The notes under the pieces: generated by a model
Seen by the model: only the letters and a program-made list of their open reading frames with translations
Told to the model about the DNA's origin: nothing
Database searches by the model: none
Program-made: the position numbers and the translations under genes
In this document: in pieces, positions 1 to 13,385 of the stretch
How the letters are laid out: each line of letters begins with the position of its first letter
Position numbering within the stretch: position 1 is the first letter of the stretch
Source: Megasphaera paucivorans
GTDB lineage: Bacteria > Bacillota > Negativicutes > Veillonellales > Megasphaeraceae
DNA: 64,000 nt
NCBI RefSeq assembly: GCF_900103535.1
Contig: NZ_FNHQ01000010.1
Coordinates: forward strand, 1-64,000
Direction: 5' to 3'

Positions 1-47
1 CTAAAATTATTACCGAGCTTCAACTACAATTAGCAAAGACTGCTTAA
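1..47 (+). CDS. C-terminal end of an unidentified CDS (partial)
   Basis: An open frame enters from the left edge and stops at the TAA at 45-47. The last residues read KIITELQLQLAKTA, a charged amphipathic tail of the sort seen at the end of many proteins. Too little is present to name it. It lies upstream of the AT-rich gene at 170 and inside the same putative integrated element. Confidence 0.3.
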   Translation, partial: KIITELQLQLAKTA

Positions 48-169
48 TCCCATTCGGAGGTTGATGGTTTTTGCGAACATTGCTTGACACTATCACTTTT
101 TAATTTGCAGGAAGGTTATATATAATAACGTGAAAAGGTAGCCTGCTTATTCAAAATTTAGGAGAGAAT

Positions 170-1063
170 ATGAATGAAGTAGCAATTCAATATCGTATCG
201 AACGTGTAAAGGATGGAGTTAGTTTGCAATCTACGCATAGACTTCCATTCGAGCCCAAGGGTACATTGTTGAAAATGAGAGAGGATTTAAAGACAGCACT
301 TTGGAATATGCCATATGAGCAAGAACAAATATTATACGGTACCTATTCTTTTGTTGAAAATGGTCGCAGAGATGTCGATGTAGATAATATTCTTATTTAT
401 AATGTTCAACAGGGAAAAAATGGGTCCACCGTATTTCAACATCTTTGCAGAAACGGATTAATATTAGAAAAATTTAAATATCCTCATTCTTTAGAAAAAG
501 ACAAACAAGTACCGTATCAATATTTTCAACAGTACACTATGGTGGATGAAAGGAAACAACAAACCTATTGGAATTTTAATAAATTAATTATTTCTTGGGA
601 GGATATAAGGATACGGACATTATACAATGATCTGGTATTGTACTGGAAAGATATAAAAGACAATCATAATCGCATATATATTGCTGCAAAAGATGATGTT
701 AAAGACGAAAAGTATGGGATGGAAATAATCTTATATACTAATACTGAATATAATCTGGCAGGTAAATTGAAATATATGATAGATGGTATTACTGCAGCAT
801 TTCATTCTCATACAGGTAAAGATTTATCGGAGATTTCTCAACGAATAGCAGTGAAATTATCTATTCCAGCACGGGATATAGCGGATATATTGATTGATTC
901 TCAATATGCTGTATTAGGGAAAAGACGATTGGTTTGGCTTTTTAGAAAAGGTATTCAGTGGAATCCGGCAGACGATCGATTTGCTTTTATTAAGATATTG
1001 ATAAAACCTTCTGCTGATTCATATACTAGATTGAGTGGAAAAATTTTTACTGTTAGTCAATAA
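170..1063 (+). CDS. Hypothetical protein, AT-rich, in the putative integrated element
   Basis: A 297-residue soluble-looking protein starting at ATG 170 after a GGAGAG ribosome site. I see no signal peptide, membrane segment or recognisable catalytic motif. The middle is rich in Tyr, Asn, Lys and Asp (for example YWNFNKLIISWEDIRI), and the C-terminal third, from about residue 205, may be a separate helical domain ending in a basic segment (GKRRLVWLFRKG). Base composition is clearly more AT-rich than the genes from 1560 onward, consistent with horizontal transfer. A U-tailed terminator follows at 1133. Function unknown; a cargo or defence role is possible only by position. Confidence 0.75.
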   Translation: MNEVAIQYRIERVKDGVSLQSTHRLPFEPKGTLLKMREDLKTALWNMPYEQEQILYGTYSFVENGRRDVDVDNILIYNVQQGKNGSTVFQHLCRNGLILEKFKYPHSLEKDKQVPYQYFQQYTMVDERKQQTYWNFNKLIISWEDIRIRTLYNDLVLYWKDIKDNHNRIYIAAKDDVKDEKYGMEIILYTNTEYNLAGKLKYMIDGITAAFHSHTGKDLSEISQRIAVKLSIPARDIADILIDSQYAVLGKRRLVWLFRKGIQWNPADDRFAFIKILIKPSADSYTRLSGKIFTVSQ

Positions 1064-1132
1064 AAATCATGAGATGTTAATAAAATATTAGGGATAGTGT
1101 GGCAGGTATCAGTAGCAATTTTGCCAAATAAT

Positions 1133-1169
1133 AAAAAGCCTCAACATTGCTATGATGGGGCTTTTTTGC
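1133..1169 (+). terminator. Rho-independent terminator after the 170-1063 gene
   Basis: AAAAGCC and GGGGCTTTTTT form a short stem around a loop of about 15 bases and are followed by a T-run. It is the natural end of the transcript from 170. Confidence 0.7.
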
Positions 1170-1342
1170 TGTCAAAATGCGTGTTGCAATATGTTCTGGT
1201 ATAAAAATGCATTTATGTTTTTTTAGGGTCAGCTATCGTGTTGGTAAAAAATCACATCAGTGTTTTCCTGTCATCTTTTAAGAAACGTGATAACCATGCG
1301 CTATGGGACATATGTAGATACACGCAAAAATGGCTTAATAAT

Positions 1343-1404
1343 ACTTGGAAATCCTGTATAGGGTGAAAACTCTATACAGGGTTCAAATCCCTGTCTCTCC
1401 GCCA
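1343..1404 (+). tRNA. 3' half of tRNA-Ser (anticodon GGA), attachment-site remnant
   Basis: The segment begins in an anticodon loop (TTGGAAA, anticodon GGA). It then has the 3' strand of an anticodon stem (TCCTG), a long class II variable arm (TATAG paired with CTATA), a perfect T arm (CAGGG-TTCAAAT-CCCTG), an acceptor strand TCTCTCC, discriminator G and encoded CCA. The bases upstream do not pair with the anticodon stem, and there is no GGAGAG acceptor strand or D arm in the preceding 100 bases. The gene is therefore only half a tRNA and cannot be functional. Homology starting exactly at the anticodon loop fits a recombinase crossover site. Confidence 0.85.
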
Positions 1405-1416
1405 TACGATAAGATG

Positions 1417-1444
1417 GAACCTGCTTTGGTGGGTTCTTTTTTTT
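1417..1444 (+). terminator. Rho-independent terminator after the tRNA-Ser fragment
   Basis: GAACC and GGGTTC pair around a short loop and are followed by a run of eight or more T. It probably came with the original tRNA gene. Confidence 0.75.
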
Positions 1445-1559
1445 ATGTCTGAATACGGAGCGACTGTCAAAAGTCTTGTTAGTATGAGGCATACTAATTC
1501 CCGAGAAAATGTTTGCGAAAAATAGGGTACGGCATAGGGGGATTAGAAGGACGGGGGAG

Positions 1560-2468
1560 TTATATTTTCTTTCGCTGGTTTAAATAACTGAAACCAATCG
1601 TACCGATCAGTATAGCTGTAATGCCGATGTACTGATATCCGTAAAGAAGTTCTTTCAGATATAGGACTCCGGCTAAAATAGAAATCACCGTAGAAAGATT
1701 GTTGAATTGCCCGACCGTAGAGGCTTCTAATTTTCCCAGAGAATACGTTGAAAGCAGAGAGGTTAACAGGGACGATGCAATGCCTAAGTATAAAATGGGA
1801 AAAACAAATGATAGATTGGTAAAGGGGGCAAAATAAGCTGTAATTGTTCCTTCCAGGAGATGGCGAATGATTGAGAGGATATTGAAACTTATACAGCCCA
1901 GTAGTGTCATTATATATGTCAGGATGAAGGTAGAGTAATGGTTAGATAATTTTCTTGTAAATACGGTACATAATGCGGCGGAAACAGCAGATAAAAAGAT
2001 GTATAAAAATCCTATGTACATACTATTTTCGGTGTCCTGTCCGCTCATTATGTTAATAAAAACGACACCGCATATGGAGAGGGACATCAATGCTTTTTGC
2101 TTCGGGCTAATGGATTCCCCTAACACGATGTTGGCAATGATCAGCGTGAGAATAGGCGTAATTGCATAGATGATCCCGGCTGCGGTAGAAGATACAATAT
2201 TCAGTCCCAGCGTTTGAAATAAGAAAAACAAGAAGGGATACATAATGCTTAAGGGGAGTATGTTTAATACATCGCGCCATTTGATGGAAATAGTATTGGA
2301 TTTGCATATCCGGAAGATAAGAATGGCTATCGCAGCGATTGTAAAGCGATGAGCTAGTAGATCCATAGGATGGGTACTTTGGAGCGCGATTTTTACAAAC
2401 ATATAAGAAAGTCCGATAATACTTGATTGAAGTGTTATTGCATAATATCCTTTAGTAGTATCTTTCAT
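1560..2468 (-). CDS. EamA/DMT-family transporter
   Basis: A 302-residue polytopic protein with ten predicted hydrophobic segments arranged as two EamA halves (about residues 8-140 and 150-298). The opening pattern with SSIIGLSYMFVKIAL and the later KLEASTVGQFNNLSTV stretch are typical of drug/metabolite exporters. It acts in the cytoplasmic membrane; the substrate (metabolite or amino-acid efflux) cannot be read from sequence. It is the first chromosomal gene beyond the tRNA scar and is transcribed toward it. The start at 2468 is preceded on the minus strand by an AAGGAATC ribosome site. Confidence 0.9.
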   Translation of the reverse strand: MKDTTKGYYAITLQSSIIGLSYMFVKIALQSTHPMDLLAHRFTIAAIAILIFRICKSNTISIKWRDVLNILPLSIMYPFLFFLFQTLGLNIVSSTAAGIIYAITPILTLIIANIVLGESISPKQKALMSLSICGVVFINIMSGQDTENSMYIGFLYIFLSAVSAALCTVFTRKLSNHYSTFILTYIMTLLGCISFNILSIIRHLLEGTITAYFAPFTNLSFVFPILYLGIASSLLTSLLSTYSLGKLEASTVGQFNNLSTVISILAGVLYLKELLYGYQYIGITAILIGTIGFSYLNQRKKI

Positions 2469-2525
2469 GAGAGATTCCTTTTTGAATGCAGCGTGCGGGA
2501 TTGTTTTTTTACTGTATAGGGCAAC

Positions 2526-3242
2526 CTATATCGATTGGATTTTTTTCTGTGCTTCTATATAGGCTGTTACTTTTGCGTGATATTCATCCAGTGTATCCGG
2601 CATTGGTTCTGTAAGACGGTTCAGTATAAGATCCGGCAAATAGCGCGGTTTTTTTCCGCCTGCGGTCATGGCACGCACGCAGCCGATGCAAGTGACGACG
2701 ACATTGTCGCAGGGAAATTGATCTGCTCGTTCCTGAATTCGTGCTTCTACTTGTTCGTTCGGCACATGTCCGTAAAAAGTATCCCCGCAGCACACGGAAC
2801 GGGTCCCGCTGAAGGTTGTTTCTATCATCATGATATTCATCTTGCAGAGCAGGCTGCGAATTGCGTTGTGTACCTGCGGTTTGTGCCGATACCCGCAGGA
2901 ATCATGGACAGAGACGGTCAACCCATGATAATCGGGCAATCGCAGGTCTTCCAGGCTGTCCAGTACTTCCCAAATGGAGAGAGTGCGGATCCCTTTATAC
3001 AGAGAACGGAATCGCCGGTCACATCCTGCACAGTTGTTGATGATTGTGGCTCCTTTCGGAAGAAGCGGGTCATGATGACAGCAGATGGGATGGAATGGTA
3101 CCTCTTCCCAGTAGGTTTTCAGCAGCTCCCACAGCAGGCTGGGGACTTCCGGCTTATATACGCTCATGGCGCAGCCCGGATTAAAGTAACAGCTATTTTT
3201 GTTGATTTGACGGAGGGAAATACTTTCTCTTATTGTTGTCAT
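2526..3242 (-). CDS. CCG-domain Fe-S protein (HdrB/GlpC-like)
   Basis: A 238-residue cysteine-rich protein with two CCG-type motif sets. The first has FNPGC, then ICCHHD, then NNCAGC; the second has HDSCG, then SVCCGD, then VTCIGC. In HdrB and GlpC-type proteins such CCG motifs ligate non-cubane or [4Fe-4S] clusters and pass electrons to a partner oxidoreductase. It sits 16 bases downstream of a 2x[4Fe-4S] ferredoxin gene on the same strand, so the two are probably an operon and an electron-transfer pair. No flavoprotein or dehydrogenase partner is adjacent, so the substrate is unknown. Confidence 0.8.
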   Translation of the reverse strand: MTTIRESISLRQINKNSCYFNPGCAMSVYKPEVPSLLWELLKTYWEEVPFHPICCHHDPLLPKGATIINNCAGCDRRFRSLYKGIRTLSIWEVLDSLEDLRLPDYHGLTVSVHDSCGYRHKPQVHNAIRSLLCKMNIMMIETTFSGTRSVCCGDTFYGHVPNEQVEARIQERADQFPCDNVVVTCIGCVRAMTAGGKKPRYLPDLILNRLTEPMPDTLDEYHAKVTAYIEAQKKIQSI

Positions 3243-3258
3243 TTCTGTTAGTCTCCTT

Positions 3259-3483
3259 TTATACAGGGTGCGGGACGCCTAACGGGCAGATGTAAGAGCA
3301 GGTCCCGCAATCAATACAAAGAGAGGGGATGATTTCATATTGCCCATTGCCCTCGAGGATTGCGTTTACCGGGCATGCTTTTACACAGCAGCCGCACATG
3401 ACGCAATCGTTGGAAATAACGTAATAAAACCTATCCTCTACACCGGGAATAATGGGTGGGGCGCAGCACGTTTCACTGTTCAC
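3259..3483 (-). CDS. 2[4Fe-4S] ferredoxin-like protein
   Basis: A 74-residue protein with two cluster motifs, CVMCGCCVKACP (about residues 28-39) and CIDCGTCSYICP (about 57-68), the standard bacterial 2x[4Fe-4S] arrangement. It also has an N-terminal CC pair. It is transcribed just ahead of the CCG-domain protein (16-base gap) and probably donates or accepts electrons for it. Confidence 0.9.
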   Translation of the reverse strand: MNSETCCAPPIIPGVEDRFYYVISNDCVMCGCCVKACPVNAILEGNGQYEIIPSLCIDCGTCSYICPLGVPHPV

Positions 3484-3671
3484 AAGCTGGATCCTCCTGT
3501 CTTAATTTCAAAGAATAAAATATGAGATGGCAGTCGACTCTAAGGGAGGGGGATATATTCTTTCCCGTAGATCCGGTTTCTTTGATTGTATCGGATGTAT
3601 ACCGGTATGTCCATCTTTTTATGAAAGGATGGAATTTTTTTGCTGAATCATAGGGCTGCTAGCAGAAAAAT

Positions 3672-3715
3672 AGCCTTCGTATGCTTTTTATTTTTATATC
3701 CTGCATGCGAAGGCT
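3672..3715 (-). terminator. Terminator of the repressor-like gene at 3768
   Basis: AGCCTTCGTATGC and GCATGCGAAGGCT form a long stem with one mismatch around an AT-rich loop. Read leftward it is followed by ATTTTTC. It lies directly downstream of the minus-strand HTH gene. The rest of 3484-3767 shows only a second small stem near 3610-3630 (CCATC/GATGG followed by T's). Confidence 0.65.
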
Positions 3716-3767
3716 GTGTGTGCTTGTATTTATAATAAATAAAAAACATAGGTGACAGAATTTCGAA

Positions 3768-4166
3768 TTAATCTGCCGTATCGTTACTGATTTTTTGGGT
3801 TGCGGCATTGTATTGGATATCTATAACAGCATCTACGGTTGCTTTGCCTTCTGAAGGCAGGCAACGGTATTTTTTTATCATATCCTTTTCCGACGCGGTA
3901 TATCCTTCTGTGCTGTAGTGTTTTATATCGTTTAAAACGTATTGCAATTTTTCAACAGAGAGAATTTTATCATCAATTAAATACAGTAATGGGATTTTTA
4001 ATTTATCTGCATATTCTTGGGCTACCGTGATTTTAGGAGTACGCTGATTTGTTTCATATCGACTAATCACTTGTTTCGAGGTATGTAAAAAAACAGCTAA
4101 TTCTTCCTGAGACATATTCTTAGACAATCTTATTTTTTTTAATTTATCTCCAAATTTTTCAGTCAT
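3768..4166 (-). CDS. XRE-family HTH repressor (phage cI-like)
   Basis: A 132-residue protein with an N-terminal HTH_3 domain (residues 7-61: LKKIRLSKNMSQEELA, then SKQVISRYETNQRTP) and a C-terminal tail without a recognisable LexA/S24 peptidase serine-lysine dyad. It is divergent from the 79-residue HTH gene at 4326 with 160 AT-rich bases of operator-like repeats between them. That is the geometry of a phage or ICE cI/cro switch. Its composition is AT-rich relative to neighbours. The start has a minus-strand AAGGAGAT ribosome site. Confidence 0.85.
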   Translation of the reverse strand: MTEKFGDKLKKIRLSKNMSQEELAVFLHTSKQVISRYETNQRTPKITVAQEYADKLKIPLLYLIDDKILSVEKLQYVLNDIKHYSTEGYTASEKDMIKKYRCLPSEGKATVDAVIDIQYNAATQKISNDTAD

Positions 4167-4203
4167 AATAAATCTCCTTTTGTGTATAAATTAATTAAAA
4201 CAT

Positions 4204-4300
4204 ATATTGTCACCAAAATCAATACAATTATATAAATATTGTAACCAAACGATTGACACAACGCAAACTGAATGATACTATAATTATAAAATCACCAAAC
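4204..4300. promoter_or_regulatory. Divergent operator/promoter region of the HTH pair
   Basis: Three same-orientation copies of a CACCAAA-type element occur: ATTGTCACCAAA at 4206-4217, ATTGTAACCAAA at 4238-4249 and AATCACCAAA at 4290-4299. ACAAT at 4224-4228 forms inverted repeats with the flanking ATTGT copies. A TTGACA lies at 4252-4257 and a TATAAT at 4280-4285; their 20+ base spacing is long, so the rightward promoter may use GATACT instead. The layout suggests binding sites for one or both HTH proteins. Confidence 0.55.
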
Positions 4301-4325
4301 AGACTACAAGAATGAGGCGAAGAAG

Positions 4326-4565
4326 ATGTCTAAAAAAATAAAAGAATTAACAGATATTATTTATGATAAATTTCATACGGAAGCGGCATGTGCTGAAATG
4401 CTGGGCTGGTCCAGGCAACGATTGAATAAAATAACGAATGGGAAAAAAATACCAGATGTAAGTGAATTGAATAGTTTGTCTAATGTTCTGGATACCTCTG
4501 TTGGCTCGCTGGCCATTATTTTTTTGCAGAAAAAATCACCAAATGAGCAACGAAAAATAGTATGA
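4326..4565 (+). CDS. Small HTH protein (Cro-like)
   Basis: A 79-residue protein with a helix-turn-helix (roughly residues 17-45: HTEAACAEMLGWSRQRLNKI followed by TNGKKIPD). It is the divergent partner of the repressor at 3768, starts at ATG 4326 after GAGGCG, and is AT-rich. A Cro or antirepressor role is inferred from position. A further AAATCACCAAA sequence, like the operator repeats, lies inside its 3' end at 4533-4543. Confidence 0.75.
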   Translation: MSKKIKELTDIIYDKFHTEAACAEMLGWSRQRLNKITNGKKIPDVSELNSLSNVLDTSVGSLAIIFLQKKSPNEQRKIV

Positions 4566-4709
4566 TATATACGGTGAAAATAGTAATAGAATTATACCAT
4601 TAAAAGCATCTGGAAGCATCAAAACCGTATAGATATAGAAAAAGTTCAAGATGGACAAACGCGGGAAATAGTGACGATACAACAGATGCGAAATAGGAGA
4701 CATATCAAA

Positions 4710-4868
4710 ATGCAATGGATCATAAATGCAATTGTAGAAGCGGATGCTGTCATGGAGAACGAACAAAAAGAACATAAAAACCGGCAGTATACATTTGAAA
4801 AGTACGTTATTAAGATCAATTTAGCAATAATAGGTATTGCAATCCTTACTTTGAGAGGAGGCATGTGA
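4710..4868 (+). CDS. Small hypothetical membrane protein in the phage-like relic
   Basis: A 52-residue reading frame beginning ATG 4710, nine bases after AGGAGA (4695-4700). It has a charged middle (MENEQKEHKNRQ) and one C-terminal hydrophobic stretch (INLAIIGIAIL), suggesting a small single-pass protein. The same frame is open upstream to about 4600 without a good start, so it could instead be the tail of a decayed gene. Function unknown. Confidence 0.35.
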   Translation: MQWIINAIVEADAVMENEQKEHKNRQYTFEKYVIKINLAIIGIAILTLRGGM

Positions 4869-4976
4869 CGCAGCGCGTAATGTATGCAAGTATAAAAGCA
4901 GCAAGTTTATCTACAAGATAGATATTGCTGCGCAGGAACAGATACGATTGAGAATGATTTATAGTAGTACATCGTG

Positions 4977-5045
4977 TATAAAATAACCCGCCCGCATCGA
5001 TTGGAAACTATGTATTTCCAATCGATGCGGGCGGGTTATTTTATA
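4977..5045. terminator. 31-bp perfect hairpin, bidirectional terminator
   Basis: Bases 4977-5007 and 5015-5045 are exact inverted complements (core CCCGCCCGCATCGATTGG) around the 7-base loop CTATGTA, with AT-rich outer ends that give T-rich tails in both directions. It separates the phage-like relic from the amino-acid permease and lies downstream of both. Confidence 0.8.
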
Positions 5046-5096
5046 TTCTGTGGAGAGTAATACACGACTGCGTATATGATGGTCCGCAGGATGCGC

Positions 5097-6551
5097 TTAT
5101 TTGTTTTTAGCAGTAGGCGAGTCATCGTGCTGCCCCGAGGGTTTCATAGAACCGCTGAAGAGTCCTCCGGAGATAATGCTATGATCATAGCTATAACCAA
5201 AATAGATAATTAATCCTAGTATCAGCCAAACAATAAAACGAATTTGCGTAACGACCGGCAGCATCCAAATCAATATGCCGCAGAAAATAATAGCTAGTGC
5301 CGGTACAACGGGAACCCAGGGACACTTGAAGGCTCTGGGACGATCCGGCGCTTTTTTGCGCAATACAATAACGGCAGCGGCTACGATCATAAATGCACAG
5401 AGTGTGCCGATGTTTGTAAGTTCAGCGACGATGCCGATGGGCAGGAAGCCGGCAACGATAGCCGTAATAATACCAATGATCAAAGAGCTTCTGGCCGGGG
5501 TTTTATATTTTTGATTAATATGGCCAAAAATACCCGGAAGAAGTCCATCACGAGACATAACAAACAAAATTCTGCTTTGTCCAAATAGCATGACCAGCAG
5601 TACGGAGGTCAAACCACAGATTGCACCGACAGAAATTATGGCAGCCCCCCAATGATAGCCTACTTGCTGCAATGCAAATGCAACCGGCGCCGCTTGGCCT
5701 TTAAAGTCAAGATACGGAACCATGCCGGTTAAAATAGCAGATACAATAATATATAAAACGGTACAAATAATTAATGATAAGATGATACCGCGCGGCAAAT
5801 CTTTTTGTGGATTTTTCACTTCTTCTGCAGCCGTAGATACAGCATCAAAACCAATATAAGCAAAAAATATAACAGAAGCTCCGGACAGTACCCCGTTCCA
5901 GCCGTAAGGCATAAACGGATGCCAGTTGTCTGGATTTACATTACTGAATCCCAGTACAATAAATAATAAAACAACAGCTAGTTTAATGGCAACAATGACG
6001 TTATTGACAGAGGAACTCTGACGGACACCCATGATATTGATCCATGTTACCAGCGCAATGATCAGCATAGCCGGAAGATTGACGATACCGCCGGCATAAG
6101 GAGCGTTTGTCAAAATAGCGGGCAGATTTATACCGATATTAGACATGATATTGGCAAAATAACCGGACCAGCCGATGGCAACGGCACCGATAGCAAATGC
6201 ATATTCCAAAATCAGATCCCAGCCGATGATCCACGCCCAAAATTCACCGAGAGCAATATACCCATACGTATATGCGCTGCCGGCGACAGGTACCATGGCG
6301 GCAAATTCCGAATAACATAAGGCGGCACAGCCACAAGCGATAGCCGCAATAATAAAGGAAATAACCAAAGCAGGTCCCGCATAATCCGCTGCAGCGACTC
6401 CGGTGAGGACAAATATTCCTGTCCCGATAATACAACCGATACCTAACATGGTAAGCTCGAAGGTTCCCAGTACTTTATTCATGCCGCCTTCTTTTTGCGT
6501 CTCTGAAATAAATTCATTGATACTTTTCGTTCTGAAAATTTTTCTAGTCAT
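5097..6551 (-). CDS. APC-family cationic amino-acid permease
   Basis: A 484-residue integral membrane protein with about 12 hydrophobic segments. The first carries the APC signature GIGCIIGTGIFVLTG (about residues 37-51) and the third region ALCYSEFAAMVPVAGSAYTY. The C-terminus matches the CAT (cationic amino-acid transporter) subfamily, like YfnA. It imports or exchanges amino acids across the cytoplasmic membrane; the exact substrate is not readable. It is monocistronic, closed by the hairpin at 4977 and preceded by an attenuator-like palindrome at 6639. Confidence 0.92.
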   Translation of the reverse strand: MTRKIFRTKSINEFISETQKEGGMNKVLGTFELTMLGIGCIIGTGIFVLTGVAAADYAGPALVISFIIAAIACGCAALCYSEFAAMVPVAGSAYTYGYIALGEFWAWIIGWDLILEYAFAIGAVAIGWSGYFANIMSNIGINLPAILTNAPYAGGIVNLPAMLIIALVTWINIMGVRQSSSVNNVIVAIKLAVVLLFIVLGFSNVNPDNWHPFMPYGWNGVLSGASVIFFAYIGFDAVSTAAEEVKNPQKDLPRGIILSLIICTVLYIIVSAILTGMVPYLDFKGQAAPVAFALQQVGYHWGAAIISVGAICGLTSVLLVMLFGQSRILFVMSRDGLLPGIFGHINQKYKTPARSSLIIGIITAIVAGFLPIGIVAELTNIGTLCAFMIVAAAVIVLRKKAPDRPRAFKCPWVPVVPALAIIFCGILIWMLPVVTQIRFIVWLILGLIIYFGYSYDHSIISGGLFSGSMKPSGQHDDSPTAKNK

Positions 6552-6638
6552 AATACCCCTCCCATGTGATTGCTGTCAGAAAATTAAAATAAAAAGCAAT
6601 ATAAAGAATATGGCAGCAAATGATACTATATATAAAAA

Positions 6639-6668
6639 AACTTCTTTTCAGATATCTGAAAAGAAGTT
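6639..6668 (-). promoter_or_regulatory. Palindrome with T-run: putative transcription attenuator ahead of the permease
   Basis: AACTTCTTTTCAGATATCTGAAAAGAAGTT is described here by its arms: AACTTCTTTTCAGAT and its exact complement ATCTGAAAAGAAGTT. Read on the minus strand the 15-bp arms are followed by seven T, a textbook intrinsic terminator. It lies about 90 bases upstream of the permease start, inside its presumed leader. A 26-codon frame (6718-6798) precedes it. I recognise no known riboswitch or T-box element in 6670-6830. The remainder of 6830-7040 is AT-rich and shows nothing else. Confidence 0.55.
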
Positions 6669-7042
6669 AGTAAGCAGCAATATACACGTTGATGGCCCTT
6701 GGAAAAAATCAATTTTCTTATATATGACTATCTAGCAAGTAATATGTAACACTCCATAGCACTGAAAATAACAGCGATTCTTCTTTCCGATACAGCATGT
6801 GTTAAGTATTCGTACAAAATTATAGTAACATAAGTATATTAATATAAATTAATTATTTTGTAAAGTGTATCTTGTTATTTTATATTAAATTTAAGTTGTT
6901 TTGCGGATTGTTGCAAAAAAAACATGAACTTCATTTTCTTATAATATTTTTGTATACATTGAGGCGCAGGAGACATGCCCGATGCGGATATCATGTGGTT
7001 TGTAACGGGACGGCATATAGTAATTTTTTGCCGGGCAGAAAA

Positions 7043-7077
7043 AAACGGACTGCAGTTTTTTGCACTGCAGTCCGTTT
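7043..7077 (-). terminator. Terminator of the Pro/His-rich peptide gene
   Basis: AAACGGACTGCAG and CTGCAGTCCGTTT form a 13-bp perfect stem. Read leftward it runs into TTTTTTT. It ends the transcript of the gene at 7099. Confidence 0.8.
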
Positions 7078-7098
7078 AGGGGATGATACATTATTTTT

Positions 7099-7320
7099 TT
7101 ACGGAAAAGGAGGTGCCGGTGGTAACGTGGGCGGTGCCGGCGGCAATTTCGGCGGCGGTGGAAGATGCGGGCCGTGATGATGCGGCGGCGGGGGAAGCGG
7201 GGGAAGCGGGGGAAGCGGGGGAAGCGGAAACGGAGCAGCACCCGCAGTACTGGGACACCAACCCAGCATGAATACTGCCAGTAGGGTAAACAATAATTTT
7301 TTTACGGGGGTACTTTTCAT
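7099..7320 (-). CDS. Exported Pro/His-rich low-complexity peptide
   Basis: A 73-residue protein. ATG at 7320 is chosen over an earlier in-frame start because AAGGAAAA lies 7-14 bases upstream. Residues 1-28 are a signal peptide (MKSTPVKKLLFTLLAVFML with cleavage near STAGA-A). The mature part is almost entirely Pro, Leu and His: PLP/LPP triplets, then PPPPHHHGPH, then PPxP repeats. The LPP block is encoded by four exact 9-base repeats (7190-7225). The histidines suggest metal binding or a polyproline spacer in the envelope; no homologous family is recognised. Confidence 0.7.
   Translation of the reverse strand: MKSTPVKKLLFTLLAVFMLGWCPSTAGAAPFPLPPLPPLPPLPPPPHHHGPHLPPPPKLPPAPPTLPPAPPFP
7190..7225. 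repeat. Four exact 9-bp tandem repeats (GGGGGAAGC)
   Basis: Four perfect copies of GGGGGAAGC lie inside the peptide gene. Each adds one Leu-Pro-Pro triplet on the minus strand. The unit is a multiple of three, so copy-number slippage would change peptide length without a frameshift. Confidence 0.9.
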
Positions 7321-7370
7321 GGATATTTTTCCTTTTTTATAAATATGCAATTATATTACATGATTATATG

Positions 7371-7516
7371 ACACGGCGGTATCTGCAATACGATCTGCAG
7401 CAAAAGCTGCAGAGATAGAAAGATATCTGAATAGGTAAAAACGTCTTGTACCTCGTGAAATATACAAGATGTTTTTACCTATTGCGGAGATCGTATAGCT
7501 GTCAGCTGCTCCGTGT
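7371..7516. ncRNA. Multi-branched inverted-repeat element (structured RNA or MITE-like)
   Basis: Outer arms ACACGG (7371-7376) / CCGTGT (7511-7516) and ATACGATCT (7388-7396) / AGATCGTAT (7488-7496) enclose two strong hairpins. One is CTGCAGC-AAAA-GCTGCAG (7395-7412). The other is a 21-bp stem at 7430-7450 / 7463-7483 with a single G-T pair. The fold is compact and could form from either strand. It lies in the upstream region of the Pro/His-rich peptide gene, so on the minus strand it may be a 5' leader. No match to a riboswitch class I know. Confidence 0.5.
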
Positions 7517-7538
7517 TTCTGCATGTAGTATATACTGG

Positions 7539-7561
7539 TTTTACTATAAACCATAGTAAAA
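7539..7561. repeat. Inverted repeat upstream of the structured element
   Basis: TTTTACTAT and ATAGTAAAA are exact 9-bp complements separated by 5 bases. This is operator-like or part of the promoter region for leftward transcription. A TTGACT on the minus strand lies at 7560-7565. Confidence 0.4.
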
Positions 7562-7690
7562 GTCAAGCAGGAATCCTCTGATTTTTTTTAGCTAAAATAG
7601 GATAAAAGACGGGAGACTTTTGCTGTTGTTGTAACATAAGGCATTTCGAAAGAATTGATATGTATTTGTCAAAAAGAGTTTCTTTTTATT

Positions 7691-7726
7691 TGTTATTTTG
7701 ATACACTAAAATGTAACAAAATAACA
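7691..7726. repeat. Operator-like inverted repeat upstream of the Flp pilin
   Basis: TGTTATTTTG and CAAAATAACA are exact 10-bp complements separated by 16 bases, 74 bases ahead of the pilin start. It may be a regulator site or a weak leader hairpin. Confidence 0.4.
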
Positions 7727-7799
7727 GCAGGTATCGTAAAAATATATTGAATAAAACGGTATCAAGTAATGAAATGAGTTGTGAAGGGAGCGATAGAGT

Positions 7800-8000
7800 A
7801 TGCTAGGGTATATACAATATGTAATGAATCGGTATGCAGGAGAAAAAGGACAGGGACTTACAGAATATGCAATCATTTTACTGCTCGTGGTGTTGATTGG
7901 GGTTATGATATGGTTTGGCTTTCATGTCAGAGGGTCCGTGTCGATGCTGTATAGTAAAATCGGCAGTGATCTTTCCAGTATTGCTTCCTCATCGAACTAA
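7800..8000 (+). CDS. Flp/Fap-type (type IVb) pilin
   Basis: A 66-residue prepilin. The processing motif is present: Gly17 is followed by QGLTEY, giving Glu at +5 and Tyr at +6 of the mature protein, the G/XXXXEY rule of Flp pilins. A hydrophobic stretch (AIILLLVVLIGVMIWFGF) follows directly. Mature subunits would assemble into tight-adherence pili using Tad secretion proteins and a prepilin peptidase. None of these is within the window, so this is an orphan pilin gene. It is monocistronic, with a ribosome site GGGAGCG and a terminator just downstream. Confidence 0.9.
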   Translation: MLGYIQYVMNRYAGEKGQGLTEYAIILLLVVLIGVMIWFGFHVRGSVSMLYSKIGSDLSSIASSSN

Positions 8001-8047
8001 AACGGATAATTATACGAGAACTATTATTTTCACGAGACGACATAATG

Positions 8048-8075
8048 AAGAGTCTACATGCAGAGGCTCTTTTTT
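8048..8075 (+). terminator. Terminator after the Flp pilin
   Basis: AAGAGTCT pairs with AGGCTCTT (one G-T pair) around a short loop and is followed by T6. Confidence 0.7.
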
Positions 8076-8142
8076 GTTTGCAGAGGGGAATCCTCTATGA
8101 TGCTTCTCTTTTTTGAAGCAGTGACAGTGTACATAAAAATAA

Positions 8143-8174
8143 CGCACAACGATGCGTCTTAGCCTCGTTGTGCG
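8143..8174 (-). terminator. Terminator of the Cys-repeat peptide gene
   Basis: CGCACAACGA and TCGTTGTGCG form a 10-bp perfect stem. Read leftward it is followed by TTATTTTT. Confidence 0.75.
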
Positions 8175-8188
8175 CTGTACTGCCGTCC

Positions 8189-8449
8189 TTAGGATTTTGT
8201 CGGCGGCATTTGATGACCGTCATGCTGATGACCTTCTGCTTTTTGTTGGTGTTGATGACAGTTCTTATCTTTACAGTTTTTATTTTTGCAATTCATCTGA
8301 GGGCAATTCATGTCCTTGCAGTTTTTGTCTTGGCATTGCTGCTGCATTGGCATGGGAGGCGGAGGTTGTGCTGCGAATGATACAGATAAACCCATCATAA
8401 ACATACTGCCTATGAGCAATGTTAGCACGTTCTTCCAGGATTTTTTCAT
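8189..8449 (-). CDS. Exported six-cysteine pentapeptide-repeat peptide, His-rich tail
   Basis: An 86-residue protein with a signal peptide (about residues 1-26, ending SVSFA-A) and a PPPPMPM spacer. Cysteines then fall at exactly every fifth residue (39, 44, 49, 54, 59, 64) in a KNCKD/MNCPQ-like repeat. A tail with five histidines (65, 67, 74, 76, 79) follows. It resembles the MXKDX-type low-complexity exported repeat peptides. Regular Cys and His spacing outside the cytoplasm suggests metal or heme binding or redox buffering; this is inference. The start follows a minus-strand AAGGAAGTG site. Confidence 0.75.
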   Translation of the reverse strand: MKKSWKNVLTLLIGSMFMMGLSVSFAAQPPPPMPMQQQCQDKNCKDMNCPQMNCKNKNCKDKNCHQHQQKAEGHQHDGHQMPPTKS

Positions 8450-8480
8450 GGTATCACTTCCTTTGCATTACAATACATAA

Positions 8481-8520
8481 ATTATAATTGTATAATTTAA
8501 TTATAGCTTATAATTGTAAA
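8481..8520. promoter_or_regulatory. AT-rich repeats upstream of the Cys-repeat peptide
   Basis: ATTATAATTGTATAAT (8481-8496) is an inverted repeat with 6-base arms. TTATAATTGTA recurs at 8509-8519. The pattern resembles Fur/PerR-type operators (TTATAAT-N-ATTATAA) but could simply be overlapping -10 elements for the leftward gene. The rest of 8520-8678 shows no gene. Confidence 0.35.
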
Positions 8521-8678
8521 TATTTCAACACATATACATCGAATATTTTAGCATATGATGTTATGTTCATAAAAATGATGCGAATATATATGCGTAGTTT
8601 TTTCGGAAGTATCCGTTATAGAAGACGGGCGGTAGTTTTTCTGCAGAGAGCCGCATGTAACGTTTTTCTCAGGGGTGT

Positions 8679-9191
8679 TCAATTTTTCTGCCAGGTTGGC
8701 AGCAGTGTATATATGGATTTGTATGCCAGAAAGAACAGCGAGATTTCCATAGGGAAACAGAGGATGTTCTTGAGTAAGCGGCTTAAGAATATAGCTGAAA
8801 CAGCCTTGCCGTAAAAGAGCGTAAGCCATAGTGTATTGAGTCCCAAATGAATGCAGATAGTGACGAGCAGAAAGGGGAGAACGACTTGACGAAGCGTTAT
8901 TTTTTTCTGATATAAAAAATGCCCGAATAGCCAGCCTGTCAAAAATCCGGATAGGACAAAACCGGGAAAGAATATACTGAGCCCCAATACGCCGGTTCCG
9001 ATAACATCTGCCATAGCTGCCACTATTCCGGCTTGCCTCGGTCCGAACCGCATGGCGTACAACGAGATAGGGAGAAAGCCAAACGTAATATGAACAAAGG
9101 TTGTTCGGATGGCAAACACATAGGAAAAAATAACGGTTAAGGCAATACATATTCCTGCATATACGATGGTACGGGCTGAATCATTTGACAT
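8679..9191 (-). CDS. ECF transporter S component, folate (FolT)-like
   Basis: A 170-residue membrane protein with about six hydrophobic segments. The GFLPISLYAMRFGP and FFPGFVLSGFLTGWLFG stretches match folate-type S components of energy-coupling-factor importers. ATG 9191 is chosen because AAAGGATG lies 11 bases ahead on the minus strand; an upstream TTG would add ten residues. It would bind folate-like vitamins in the membrane and needs the shared EcfA/A'/T module, which is not in the window. I looked for a tetrahydrofolate riboswitch upstream and found none. Confidence 0.75.
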   Translation of the reverse strand: MSNDSARTIVYAGICIALTVIFSYVFAIRTTFVHITFGFLPISLYAMRFGPRQAGIVAAMADVIGTGVLGLSIFFPGFVLSGFLTGWLFGHFLYQKKITLRQVVLPFLLVTICIHLGLNTLWLTLFYGKAVSAIFLSRLLKNILCFPMEISLFFLAYKSIYTLLPTWQKN

Positions 9192-9301
9192 ACGAAAGTA
9201 GACATCCTTTCTATTCTGCAATACATTTCCGGCATTGCAGTTTGGTGCGCGGGGGATTTTTATATCGTGACAGGCAGTACGATGGGACCGGAAACGGTCG
9301 T

Positions 9302-9571
9302 TTATTTAGAGAGTAGTTGTTTTATATCCTCTGTTATTTTTTTATTGTTGGCTTCGATTAGATCGGAAACAAAAGGATATAAGATATTTTCCGTATATAC
9401 AGCGGAAAATATTTCAAGTGATGCGAATACATCTTTTGTGGTTTGAGAGTGTAAATGGCGGATCGTATCAAAATACAATGCATTGAACACCGTATGATAC
9501 TTTCTGTTGTTCAGATGACGCATGGTTTCAAACACTTCTTTTTTAGTCATTCCAATTATTTTTTCACTCAC
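9302..9571 (-). CDS. Small hypothetical protein
   Basis: An 89-residue protein. GTG 9571 is chosen because AAAGGAG sits nine bases upstream; a longer frame to 9637 lacks a ribosome site. It is soluble and mostly helical, starting VSEKIIGMTKKEVFETMRH, with no recognised motif. It lies between the ECF S component and the hemolysin III family gene on the same strand. Function unknown. Confidence 0.6.
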   Translation of the reverse strand: MSEKIIGMTKKEVFETMRHLNNRKYHTVFNALYFDTIRHLHSQTTKDVFASLEIFSAVYTENILYPFVSDLIEANNKKITEDIKQLLSK

Positions 9572-9656
9572 GGTAATCATCTCCTTTGAGACGATTATAA
9601 CATAAAAATAAAATAGGAGAATACGGGACAGTTTCAAAAAAAGATGGGACAGATGA

Positions 9657-9696
9657 CCGCAGCAGCCTTATATTGTGCAATATAAAGCTGCTGCGG
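9657..9696. terminator. Strong hairpin between the 9302 and 9724 genes
   Basis: CCGCAGCAGC-TTATATTG pairs with CAATATAA-GCTGCTGCGG with one unpaired base on each side of a 2-base turn. No T-run follows on either strand, so it may be a weak terminator of the 9724 transcript or an mRNA processing/stability hairpin. Confidence 0.5.
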
Positions 9697-9723
9697 GAGA
9701 TTGCATATTATTTTTAACTACTT

Positions 9724-10383
9724 TTAAAAGATTTCAGATATAGGAAGAACAAAAAAGAAAATACAGTAGAAATGCGTTGCGCTGCCGGCTAAAACAAACA
9801 TATGCCAAATGGCATGCTGGAACGGCAGTTTTTTCCAAAGATAGAAAATGGCACCTACGGTATAGCAGACCCCTCCGGCGATGAGCCACATGATCGCGTT
9901 CCATGACAGATATTCTATCAGCTGCGGCAGCAATAGAACGGATATCCAACCCATTGCGATATAGCAAAGCGTAGACACAATATGAAATCTATGTACGTTG
10001 AAGCACTGCCATACGATACCCAGCGCGGCAAGCAGCCAAATCACGGCAGAGATGGCCAAGCCGGAGGACTGGCGGAGCGTGATCCACAAAAAGGGAGTAT
10101 AGGAACCGGCAATCAGTATATAAATTGCAGAATGATCCAGTATTTTGAAAACATAGGAAACCTTTGGCAGTTTAAAAAAGCTGTGGTACAACGTACTCAT
10201 TAAATATAAGAGAACCAAAGAAGCGCCATATACAGTAACTGAAAGTACATGCCAGGTTCCTTCATGATGAACCAGGGTCATATACAGCATAATACCGAGA
10301 GCCGCAATGGACAACACGGTACCGACGCCATGGGTTACTGCATTTGCAATTTCTTCTATCCATTTTTTTGATTGAAGAGTCAT
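9724..10383 (-). CDS. Hemolysin III / PAQR-family membrane protein
   Basis: A 219-residue protein with seven hydrophobic segments. The PAQR histidine and Ser/Asp motifs are visible: ANAVTHGVG near the start, STLYHSFF and ILDHSAIYILIAGSYTP in the middle, and HAIWHMFVLAG near the end. In eukaryotic relatives these ligate zinc and give hydrolase-like activity. Bacterial YqfA/HlyIII members are linked to membrane homeostasis; pore formation is rarely tested. It is monocistronic in appearance. Confidence 0.9.
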   Translation of the reverse strand: MTLQSKKWIEEIANAVTHGVGTVLSIAALGIMLYMTLVHHEGTWHVLSVTVYGASLVLLYLMSTLYHSFFKLPKVSYVFKILDHSAIYILIAGSYTPFLWITLRQSSGLAISAVIWLLAALGIVWQCFNVHRFHIVSTLCYIAMGWISVLLLPQLIEYLSWNAIMWLIAGGVCYTVGAIFYLWKKLPFQHAIWHMFVLAGSATHFYCIFFFVLPISEIF

Positions 10384-10612
10384 GATATTTCCTTCCTTTC
10401 TTTTTCTGCTTTTCGTATCATAAAAGATACAGCAGACGATTTTTCTTTCGGACTATATTATATACCTTATTATCCGAATCGTCATGTCGGAGTCAATGAT
10501 TTTACAATGCGAGGGAAATAAAATTGATTTGCAGGATTATTGCTTTTCATTCCCAGTGAAATTCAGTATAATAAAACTAAGATCGGCAAGGTTAAACTAA
10601 GGAGGCAATTTC

Positions 10613-11158
10613 ATGAAAAGAACATTAGCTATAGTAATGGCTGTCTTGACTATGTTTTTAATAGCCGGATGTGATATGGGTTCTACGGCAACGCAGAAAA
10701 ATTCGACGCAGCAGGGGCAGCAGGATACAAAGAATACGCAATCATCTAAAGCTGCTGCGCGGCAGGCCGTAGTTTGTGAACTTCCCGGCTTAGGAGATAC
10801 ACGTACGGCATGGACGGCAGAATGGGGCAGTCCGACAGCACAGGGAGATACGATTAAATTGTTTAATAATGGGGCGTATAAAACCATTTTTGAGGGGGAT
10901 AAAGCGATTACGATAACGTTTGCTTCCAAAGACGGCAAGAATCCACTGTCTGAAAAAATGGTTCCTAAAGATGGCAAGAAGCTCTCCGAAAACAGTAAAA
11001 AAACAGGAGATTCCAAAATGATCGTGCAAAAATGGCATAGCGATTTATTGGCGGCGGCTATTCCGGAAACAAAAGGCAATTATACGATCATGCAGCATAT
11101 GGAAGGAACGGCATATACCAATGTTACGGTAGACTGCACACCGAATTTAAGTAAATAG
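10613..11158 (+). CDS. Putative lipoprotein
   Basis: A 181-residue protein with a lipoprotein signal: a hydrophobic N-terminus and lipobox LIAGC with Cys20 as the lipidation site. A Gln/Ser/Thr-rich linker follows (about residues 24-48), then a globular domain of about 130 residues beginning VVCELPGLGDTRTAW. I do not recognise the domain. The promoter is probably TTTTCA-17-TATAAT just upstream (-10 around 10568) and the ribosome site is AAGGAGG. Confidence 0.8.
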   Translation: MKRTLAIVMAVLTMFLIAGCDMGSTATQKNSTQQGQQDTKNTQSSKAAARQAVVCELPGLGDTRTAWTAEWGSPTAQGDTIKLFNNGAYKTIFEGDKAITITFASKDGKNPLSEKMVPKDGKKLSENSKKTGDSKMIVQKWHSDLLAAAIPETKGNYTIMQHMEGTAYTNVTVDCTPNLSK

Positions 11159-11162
11159 AGAT

Positions 11163-11198
11163 AAAAAAATGCTGTTCTCATAGGAACAGCATTTTTTT
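11163..11198. terminator. Bidirectional terminator between the lipoprotein and tex
   Basis: ATGCTGTTC and GAACAGCAT form a perfect stem flanked by A7 and T7, so it can end both converging transcripts. Confidence 0.9.
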
Positions 11199-11204
11199 AT
11201 CTCT

Positions 11205-13385
11205 TTATTTTTGTGATTTATTCGTCTCTAATTGTTTAATTGAAAGACCGATACGGCTGCGTCCGGCATCAACAGAAATAATGACGGCGTCGATGATATC
11301 GCCAACGTGAATGATATCCAGCGGATGCGTAAAGGAATGGGAACTCAGTTCGGAACGATGAATCAAGCCGGGCGTTTTGAGCCCAATATCGACAAAGGCG
11401 CCAAAATCGACTACATTATGCACCGTACCGCGTACAATAGTGCCGACCGGCAGCTCATCCAGAGAAACGACATGTTTGCGTGTCAAAGGCTGTGGAAAAC
11501 CGTCGCGTATATCGCGGCCGGGTTTGCGCAATTCTTCTAATATATCCCGGATCGTAGGAATGCCGGCTTGTAATTTAGCGGCTAATTTAGGAGCTGCGTT
11601 CATTTGTAATTTGCTTTGCAGGAGCCGGAGCTTTTCTTCATTTTCTAAATCCTGCATAGTAAAATCATACATCTTGATTATTTCTTCAGCCAGTGGATAG
11701 GATTCGGGATGAACGGAGGTGTTATCCAAGGGATTGCTGCCGTTTTTGATACGAAGGAATCCGGCACACTGCGTAAAGGCGGCGGGTCCCAGGCGATTGA
11801 CGCTGAGCAGTTCCCGACGGTCATGAAACGGACCATTTTCATTTCGGTAGGCAACGATATTTCCCGCTGTACTTGCCGTAAGTCCGGAAATGTGCTGCAA
11901 CAGGGCGGGAGAGGCTGTGTTTAAATCGACACCTACATAGTTTACGACAGATTCGACGACGTCATCCAAGGTTGCCGACAGTCGTTTTTGATTGACGTCG
12001 TGTTGGTATTGGCCGACGCCGATTGATTTAGGATCTATTTTTACTAATTCTGCCAGCGGGTCTTGTATGCGCCGGGCAATCGATACGGCACCGCGTATGG
12101 AAACATCGAGTTCCGGTAATTCTTCACGGGCCAGATCAGAGGCTGAATATACGGAGGCACCGGCTTCATTGGCAATGCAATAGCGGCAGGTTAAACCGTT
12201 GTCCCGGATCAGTGAGGAAATAAATTGTTCTGTTTCATAGGATGCCGTGCCGTTGCCAATGGAAATGAGCGTAACGTGATGCTGCTGTATCAAGGCGCTG
12301 AGGGCCGCGGCACTTTCTTCCCGCTGTTTTTGCGAGCTGGTTAGATAGTAAGTACCATAATCCGCCACATGACCGCAGGAATCAATGACGGCACATTTGC
12401 AGCCGGTACGGTATCCCGGATCCATGCCCAAGATGGTTTGGCCTGTAAACGGCGGCTGCAGAAGAAGCTGGCGCAGATTTTCGGCAAAAACGGTGATGGC
12501 TTGTTTTTCTGCACGTTCCGTTAATTCATTGCGTATTTCCCGTTCCATCTGTGGAAAAATAGTGCGCTTGTAACTGTCTGCGGCGGCAGCTTCCAGCAGT
12601 GCTGCATAGGGGGAGTCCTGCTGGACCAGCAGACTTCTCAAATGCTGAATATAGATATCATCAGCAGCCGTCAGTGTGACTTTTAATACTTTCTGCGCTT
12701 CGCCGCGGTTGATAGCTAGAATGCGGTGGCTGGGGAGATGACGGATACTTTCGCTGAAGTCTTTATAGGTAAGCATTGCTTGTGCATCTTGTTCTTCGAC
12801 CAGCAGCGTACATTCCAGCTTTGCTGATTTCCAAAGAGCGGAGCGGAGGTAGCGCCGGAACGCTGCCAATTCGGACAGATGCTCGGCAATAATATAACCG
12901 GCCCCTTGAAGGGCGTCTTCCACTGTCGGCACCTCTTCGCTGAGGAATGAACCAGCCAGTGATTCGGCCGACGGTCCTGCCGGATTTTGTTCCATTAGCA
13001 GTGCCGCCAGGGGTTCCAGTCCGGCATCACGAGCCATGGAGGCCTTCGTGCGTTTTTTCGGCTTATACGGAAGGTATATATCTTCTACATCTTGCAGACG
13101 TTGTGCGTTTTCCAGCTTTTCTGCCAGTTCTTCTGTAAGCTGTCCTTGTGAAGCGATAGATTGACGCACTGTTTCTTTTCGTTGAGCCAGTGCCATGTCA
13201 TATTCAAAGTTTTCTTTTATTTGCCGTAATTGTACTTCATCGAGTTCGCCGGTTGCTTCTTTTCGGTAACGAGCGACAAAGGGAATCGTATTGCCTTGAT
13301 CGAAAAGAGTAAGGGCGGCAGCGACTTGCTTGGGTGTGATATGAAGTGCTGCGGCAATCTTTCGGATAATTTTTTCTGGTTGCAT
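11205..13385 (-). CDS. tex: Tex family S1 RNA-binding transcription accessory protein
   Basis: A 726-residue protein of normal Tex length. It has the N-terminal helical Tex core (GNTIPFVARYRKEATGELDE near residues 31-50), a YqgF-like RNase H fold (TILGMDPGYRTGCK, about 318-331) and helix-hairpin-helix repeats (VGVDLNTASPALLQHI and VNRLGPAAFTQCAGF). A C-terminal S1 domain (about 646-715: LPVGTIVRGTVHNVVDFGAFVDIG) completes it. Tex binds RNA and associates with RNA polymerase in transcription quality control. The start follows AGAGGAGATATAT on the minus strand. It is single-gene and convergent with the lipoprotein. Confidence 0.95.
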   Translation of the reverse strand: MQPEKIIRKIAAALHITPKQVAAALTLFDQGNTIPFVARYRKEATGELDEVQLRQIKENFEYDMALAQRKETVRQSIASQGQLTEELAEKLENAQRLQDVEDIYLPYKPKKRTKASMARDAGLEPLAALLMEQNPAGPSAESLAGSFLSEEVPTVEDALQGAGYIIAEHLSELAAFRRYLRSALWKSAKLECTLLVEEQDAQAMLTYKDFSESIRHLPSHRILAINRGEAQKVLKVTLTAADDIYIQHLRSLLVQQDSPYAALLEAAAADSYKRTIFPQMEREIRNELTERAEKQAITVFAENLRQLLLQPPFTGQTILGMDPGYRTGCKCAVIDSCGHVADYGTYYLTSSQKQREESAAALSALIQQHHVTLISIGNGTASYETEQFISSLIRDNGLTCRYCIANEAGASVYSASDLAREELPELDVSIRGAVSIARRIQDPLAELVKIDPKSIGVGQYQHDVNQKRLSATLDDVVESVVNYVGVDLNTASPALLQHISGLTASTAGNIVAYRNENGPFHDRRELLSVNRLGPAAFTQCAGFLRIKNGSNPLDNTSVHPESYPLAEEIIKMYDFTMQDLENEEKLRLLQSKLQMNAAPKLAAKLQAGIPTIRDILEELRKPGRDIRDGFPQPLTRKHVVSLDELPVGTIVRGTVHNVVDFGAFVDIGLKTPGLIHRSELSSHSFTHPLDIIHVGDIIDAVIISVDAGRSRIGLSIKQLETNKSQK

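Follow-up and report, generated by a model that had tools for sequence, protein, structure and literature searches.

What does the 3' half of a tRNA gene near the left edge of this Megasphaera paucivorans contig mark? The window, the whole 64,000-nucleotide stretch analysed here, starts at base 1 of contig C56. An initial annotation had placed a half-gene of tRNA-Ser(GGA) at 1343-1404, starting at the anticodon loop and ending with the encoded CCA, and read it as the end of an integrated element. When the organism's own genome (G000; 2.91 Mb in 76 contigs) was searched, window 1345-1442 matched C27:9447-9544 with 94% identity over 98 bp (E 3.3e-37), which rules out a chance match and bears out the half-gene. 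The matched region belongs to an intact tRNA-Ser(gga) gene called by ARAGORN at C27:9415-9506, on a different contig of the same genome. Homology begins at TTGGAAATC in the anticodon loop, at window 1345, two bases inside the extent first proposed. The displaced half (1345-1404, forward strand; TTGGAAATCCTGTATAGGGTGAAAACTCTATACAGGGTTCAAATCCCTGTCTCTCCGCCA) runs from the anticodon loop as far as the gene-encoded CCA, which ends at 1404 as annotated, and the homology continues beyond it, via a rho-independent terminator, to approximately 1442. This terminator (1405-1442, forward strand) folds as a hairpin followed by a T run, and 36 of its 38 bases are the same as those after the intact gene. Since the alignment reaches the terminator end, the terminator hairpin was duplicated along with the tRNA half.

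Contrary to expectation, the two copies proved not to be identical. The tRNA part of the half carries four substitutions relative to the intact gene, all within 1354-1376. One of them would disrupt the anticodon stem, in which all 22 intact copies compared agree, so the half has been altered since its displacement. ARAGORN called no tRNA in the window, and Rfam models matched the first 6 kb only by chance apart from a plastid tRNA-like match to the half that fell below threshold. Immediately upstream of 1345, no recognisable 5' half or tRNA-Pro relic was seen.

We examined the surroundings of the intact gene on C27. TerC and tRNA-Pro(cgg) precede it, and the contig ends at position 12796, approximately 3.3 kb after it. 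Prophage debris fills about 3.2 kb directly after the tRNA (C27:9507-12723) and follows the prophage order as read from the integrase end. On the opposite strand, approximately 90-185 bp past the tRNA, SFKVTMDTYFHVIPDRKQSRIEKIPDL is a tyrosine integrase C terminus that retains the TMDTY motif, with E-values of 5e-6 against an integrase remnant in the relative G001 and 0.009 against the intact integrase of the relative G002. The relic (about C27:9596-9730) is frameshifted and C-terminal only, and the preceding QTRLGH stretch lies in another frame. Past the relic, C27 carries a phage-type HNH endonuclease gene (phrog_144, E 3e-21); lysozyme-like gene scraps on the contig match the G002 prophage (E 1.7e-6), and one short frame appears, on reading, to resemble the start of a terminase small subunit. 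An active prophage with a working integrase and structural genes was not found on C27, where the integrase is frameshifted and truncated and the rest is debris. Of the intact tRNA-Ser(GGA) and the integrase expected at the other end of the element, the tRNA gene is intact and the integrase is present as the frameshifted relic only; the connection of C27 with C56 is indirect. G000, G001, and G002 have a conserved tRNA-integrase spacer of about 60 bp that contains TTGAC repeats, and the repeats would suit integrase arm sites. A search of viral contigs yielded one distant integrase and no attP with this tRNA-Ser(GGA) 3' half. In phage records, relatives of the integrase were all below 60% identity and at approximately 30% among the matches listed.

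On the window side, the far (right) end of the element would lie between the end of an insertion sequence (IS) and the half-tRNA (95-1344, forward strand). This DNA is AT-rich, as first described, with a GC content of 0.33 compared to 0.37-0.51 in most of the 12 kb that follow, where one further dip to 0.33 occurs at 3.5-5 kb. It had no nucleotide match in the tRNA-Ser loci of the relatives. It contains an orphan gene for a 297-aa protein (170-1063, forward strand), probably element cargo, which a search of 60 further genomes in the order did not find. Relatives of the protein were found only in Filobacillus and in an Oscillochloris MAG (303 aa); none occurred in viral contigs or phage records. 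No match was obtained in Pfam, NCBIfam, or PADLOC, no PHROG match was better than E 0.05, a PDB profile search gave nothing credible, and the predicted structure (pLDDT 36) was unusable. The Filobacillus relative corresponds to the C-terminal half of a protein carrying DUF6946 and encoded beside EVE/AAA and McrBC-type (McrB/McrC-like) genes, and from these neighbors we would guess at a role in defence. The Filobacillus DUF6946-fusion locus (L063 3421-10187) sits downstream of a resolvase-like gene and is possibly an uncharacterised restriction-type system.

Positions 1-94 (forward strand) are the right end of an IS at the contig break, 98% identical to C16:226-319 and related to a full copy on C59 of 1335 bp with terminal inverted repeats and an 8-bp target duplication (TTCTGTTG). 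The family appears IS256-like from a reading of the transposase sequence, and no copy was found in plasmids. C27 breaks off 73 bp into an IS256-like element, at its left end. The IS left end terminates three contigs (C27, C30, and C71) and the IS right end opens two (C56 and C16). The genes adjoining the IS on C16, C30, and C71 are metabolic-looking rather than phage genes, which makes C27 and C56 natural partners across one IS. Just outside the IS ends on C27 and C56, the adjacent 8 bases (TCTTTGTA and ACTTTTTA) agree at 6 of 8 positions, which is no more than suggestive. The intact tRNA and the half are on separate contigs of G000, both of which end in IS256-like ends fitting one IS. The link through a single IS was inferred and not read through, since the first base of the window is also the first base of its contig. 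If the contigs are joined in this way, the remnant probably amounts to some 4.5 kb besides the IS (3.2 kb, approximately 1.3 kb of IS, and 1.25 kb).

We compared the locus across a family set of 17 genomes, our own included, all 17 of which matched a tRNA-Pro/tRNA-Ser query. In two of them, tRNA-Ser and tex are immediate neighbors, 366 bp apart in G014 and 193 bp apart in G016, and both sites are apparently empty. In the window, the tex-like gene, encoding an S1-domain protein, occupies 11205-13385 on the reverse strand; throughout the family it serves as the conserved marker of the chromosome downstream of tRNA-Ser(GGA), and the window genes beyond it keep their order in G014, G016, and G013.

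Filled sites were observed in G002 and G010. In G002, the tRNA-Ser is followed by a 367-aa intact tyrosine integrase, a LexA/CI-like repressor, and early phage-like genes. On another contig of G002, late phage genes for an Mtd-like tail fibre, a reverse transcriptase, an amidase, and a lysozyme-like protein lead to a clean half-tRNA-Ser, which is followed by a hemolysin III-like gene and tex; tex shares a contig with the half-tRNA in both G000 and G002. The tail-fibre gene with its Mtd N-terminal domain and the reverse transcriptase gene after it (L083 87-3576) look like a diversity-generating retroelement within the tRNA-Ser(GGA) prophage. G010, the only genome in which the tRNA and the half were shown on one contig, carries the intact tRNA-Ser, genes for an integrase and for AbiD-like and repressor-like proteins, and a half-tRNA approximately 6.6 kb away. 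Its integrase is intact and differs from that of G002 (27% identity). The halves of G000, G002, and G010 share their junction, all beginning in the anticodon loop. In G001, a 76-aa integrase remnant adjoins the tRNA-Ser, and no half-tRNA was found in this genome, which is 87% complete. Two tRNA-Pro/tRNA-Ser(GGA) pairs are present close together in G003 and G007 and on separate contigs in G008, G011, and G012. In some of the double-pair genomes the TerC side and the tex side are on different contigs, and the double pairs may reflect either a duplicated pair or a rearrangement hotspot.

Between the half-tRNA and tex, the chromosome-side flank (1443-11204) encodes, to judge by sequence, EamA transporter-, heterodisulfide-reductase-, permease-, and hemolysin III-like proteins. 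These genes are lineage-specific except for the hemolysin III-like gene (9724-10383), which is 79% identical to the gene beside the G002 half-tRNA. The 9.8-kb stretch from the half to tex is not conserved as a block, which indicates that the chromosome side has changed since as well. Small secreted proline/histidine-rich proteins flank the element on both sides (window 7099-7350 and 8189-8449, and C27:9880-10370); they are possibly one host family and not phage genes.

These results make it very probable that the half-tRNA was left as an attR scar by a tRNA-Ser(GGA) prophage, since decayed, that a tyrosine integrase had inserted at the anticodon loop, with 1345-1404 as the tRNA part of attR. 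This reading is favored because the intact gene and an integrase relic are present in the genome and because filled sites (G002 and G010) and apparently empty ones (G014 and G016) occur in relatives; together with the position of tex on the half side, they uphold the original proposal that the displaced 3' half marks the end of a tyrosine-recombinase element. Weighing against it are the indirect link between C27 and C56, the imperfect agreement of the bases flanking the two IS ends, the lack of block conservation between the half and tex, and the failure to find a half in G001. In a Campbell-type integration, a temperate phage with a tyrosine integrase would long ago have entered the tRNA-Ser(GGA) gene at the anticodon loop. 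The attP copy of the tRNA 3' half and terminator would have rebuilt the gene that now lies on C27, and the host's own 3' half, its terminator, and the downstream DNA would have been pushed to the far end, now window 1345 onward. The integrase may then have been reduced to a frameshifted C-terminal scrap and most phage genes deleted, an IS256-like element may have jumped into the decaying prophage, and the useless half-tRNA would have accumulated substitutions. We infer both that decay followed insertion and the order of its steps.

A larger and perhaps living island, with further contigs and a working integrase between C27 and C56 and with the debris as its edges, is unlikely but deserves some weight. 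The assembly has 76 contigs, G000 holds six full integrase genes, and IS ends at contig breaks could conceal other arrangements. However, none of the six integrases is close to that of G002 (28% identity at best), the relic already occupies the tRNA-proximal integrase slot, and the other contigs broken at the IS (C16, C30, and C71) carry metabolic rather than phage genes.

The four substitutions in the half raise a different question. All fall in one 28-nt stretch (1353-1380), where they complete a helix otherwise paired at 10 of 12 positions and so give a perfect 12-bp hairpin capped by a GAAA loop. The folding z is -4.6 for the half taken together with its terminator, compared to -3.8 for the intact equivalent. 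Every change in the tRNA part since displacement thus perfects a single helix ahead of the old terminator, as might be seen if the half-tRNA had been put to use as a small RNA hairpin or a stop for transcription, under selection for RNA structure; the chance of four random changes doing so is about 0.002, as computed after the fact from one sequence. Nevertheless, we consider such reuse very improbable: the pattern was noticed afterwards in this one sequence, the perfected helix is absent from the G002 and G010 halves, and quasipalindrome correction by template switching, possibly the simplest cause, yields the same pattern without selection.

Equally improbable is that the half is a deletion-trimmed leftover of a tandem tRNA-Pro/tRNA-Ser duplicate that arose with no integration: double pairs do exist in G003, G007, G008, G011, and G012, but random deletion is unlikely to have stopped in the anticodon loop three times, an integrase gene or relic lies beside each of the intact tRNAs in G000, G002, and G010, phage debris lies between, and tandem duplication was rejected as the cause on these grounds.

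The decayed prophage can be compared with known systems. Islander maps tDNA-integrated prophages and islands by this signature, and 2083 of its 3919 islands are anticodon-centred (PMC4383910). Like those islands, the present case has an intact tRNA, a displaced 3' fragment, the element between them, and an integrase, here a relic, beside the tRNA, and its crossover at the anticodon loop corresponds to Islander's subsite A; unlike in those islands, an IS and a contig break interrupt the element. Because the integrase is a relic, the Islander integrase filter would reject it. Fragments of tRNA genes left by integrative elements (attR remnants) were surveyed in Thermococcaceae (PMC9897764). These and the half-tRNA described here are alike partial, non-functional tRNA genes left by integration and not canonical tRNAs; ours comes from a bacterium, its terminator was duplicated as well, and relatives show the site both filled and empty. 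The closest comparison, the G002 tRNA-Ser(GGA) prophage (L067 and L083), shares the target gene, the crossover, the conserved tRNA-integrase spacer, and the half on the tex side, whereas its integrase, repressor, and late genes are intact and only scraps persist in G000. A second tRNA scar is present in G000: tRNA-Ser(GCT) lies at C31:47571-47662 (L006) with an integrase gene approximately 3.4 kb away, and C26:1933-1999 (L007) is a 67-bp 3' half of it, 100% identical and starting again at the anticodon loop. That scar looks recent.

The window thus holds an ordinary example of a well-understood integration scar, which changes nothing in principle outside this bacterial family. Maps of element ends that require an intact integrase would miss such scars. 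Here, the half-tRNA fixes the right end of the decayed prophage. Within the family, integration has recurred at tRNA-Ser(GGA), where integrases only 27% identical to each other share the same crossover.
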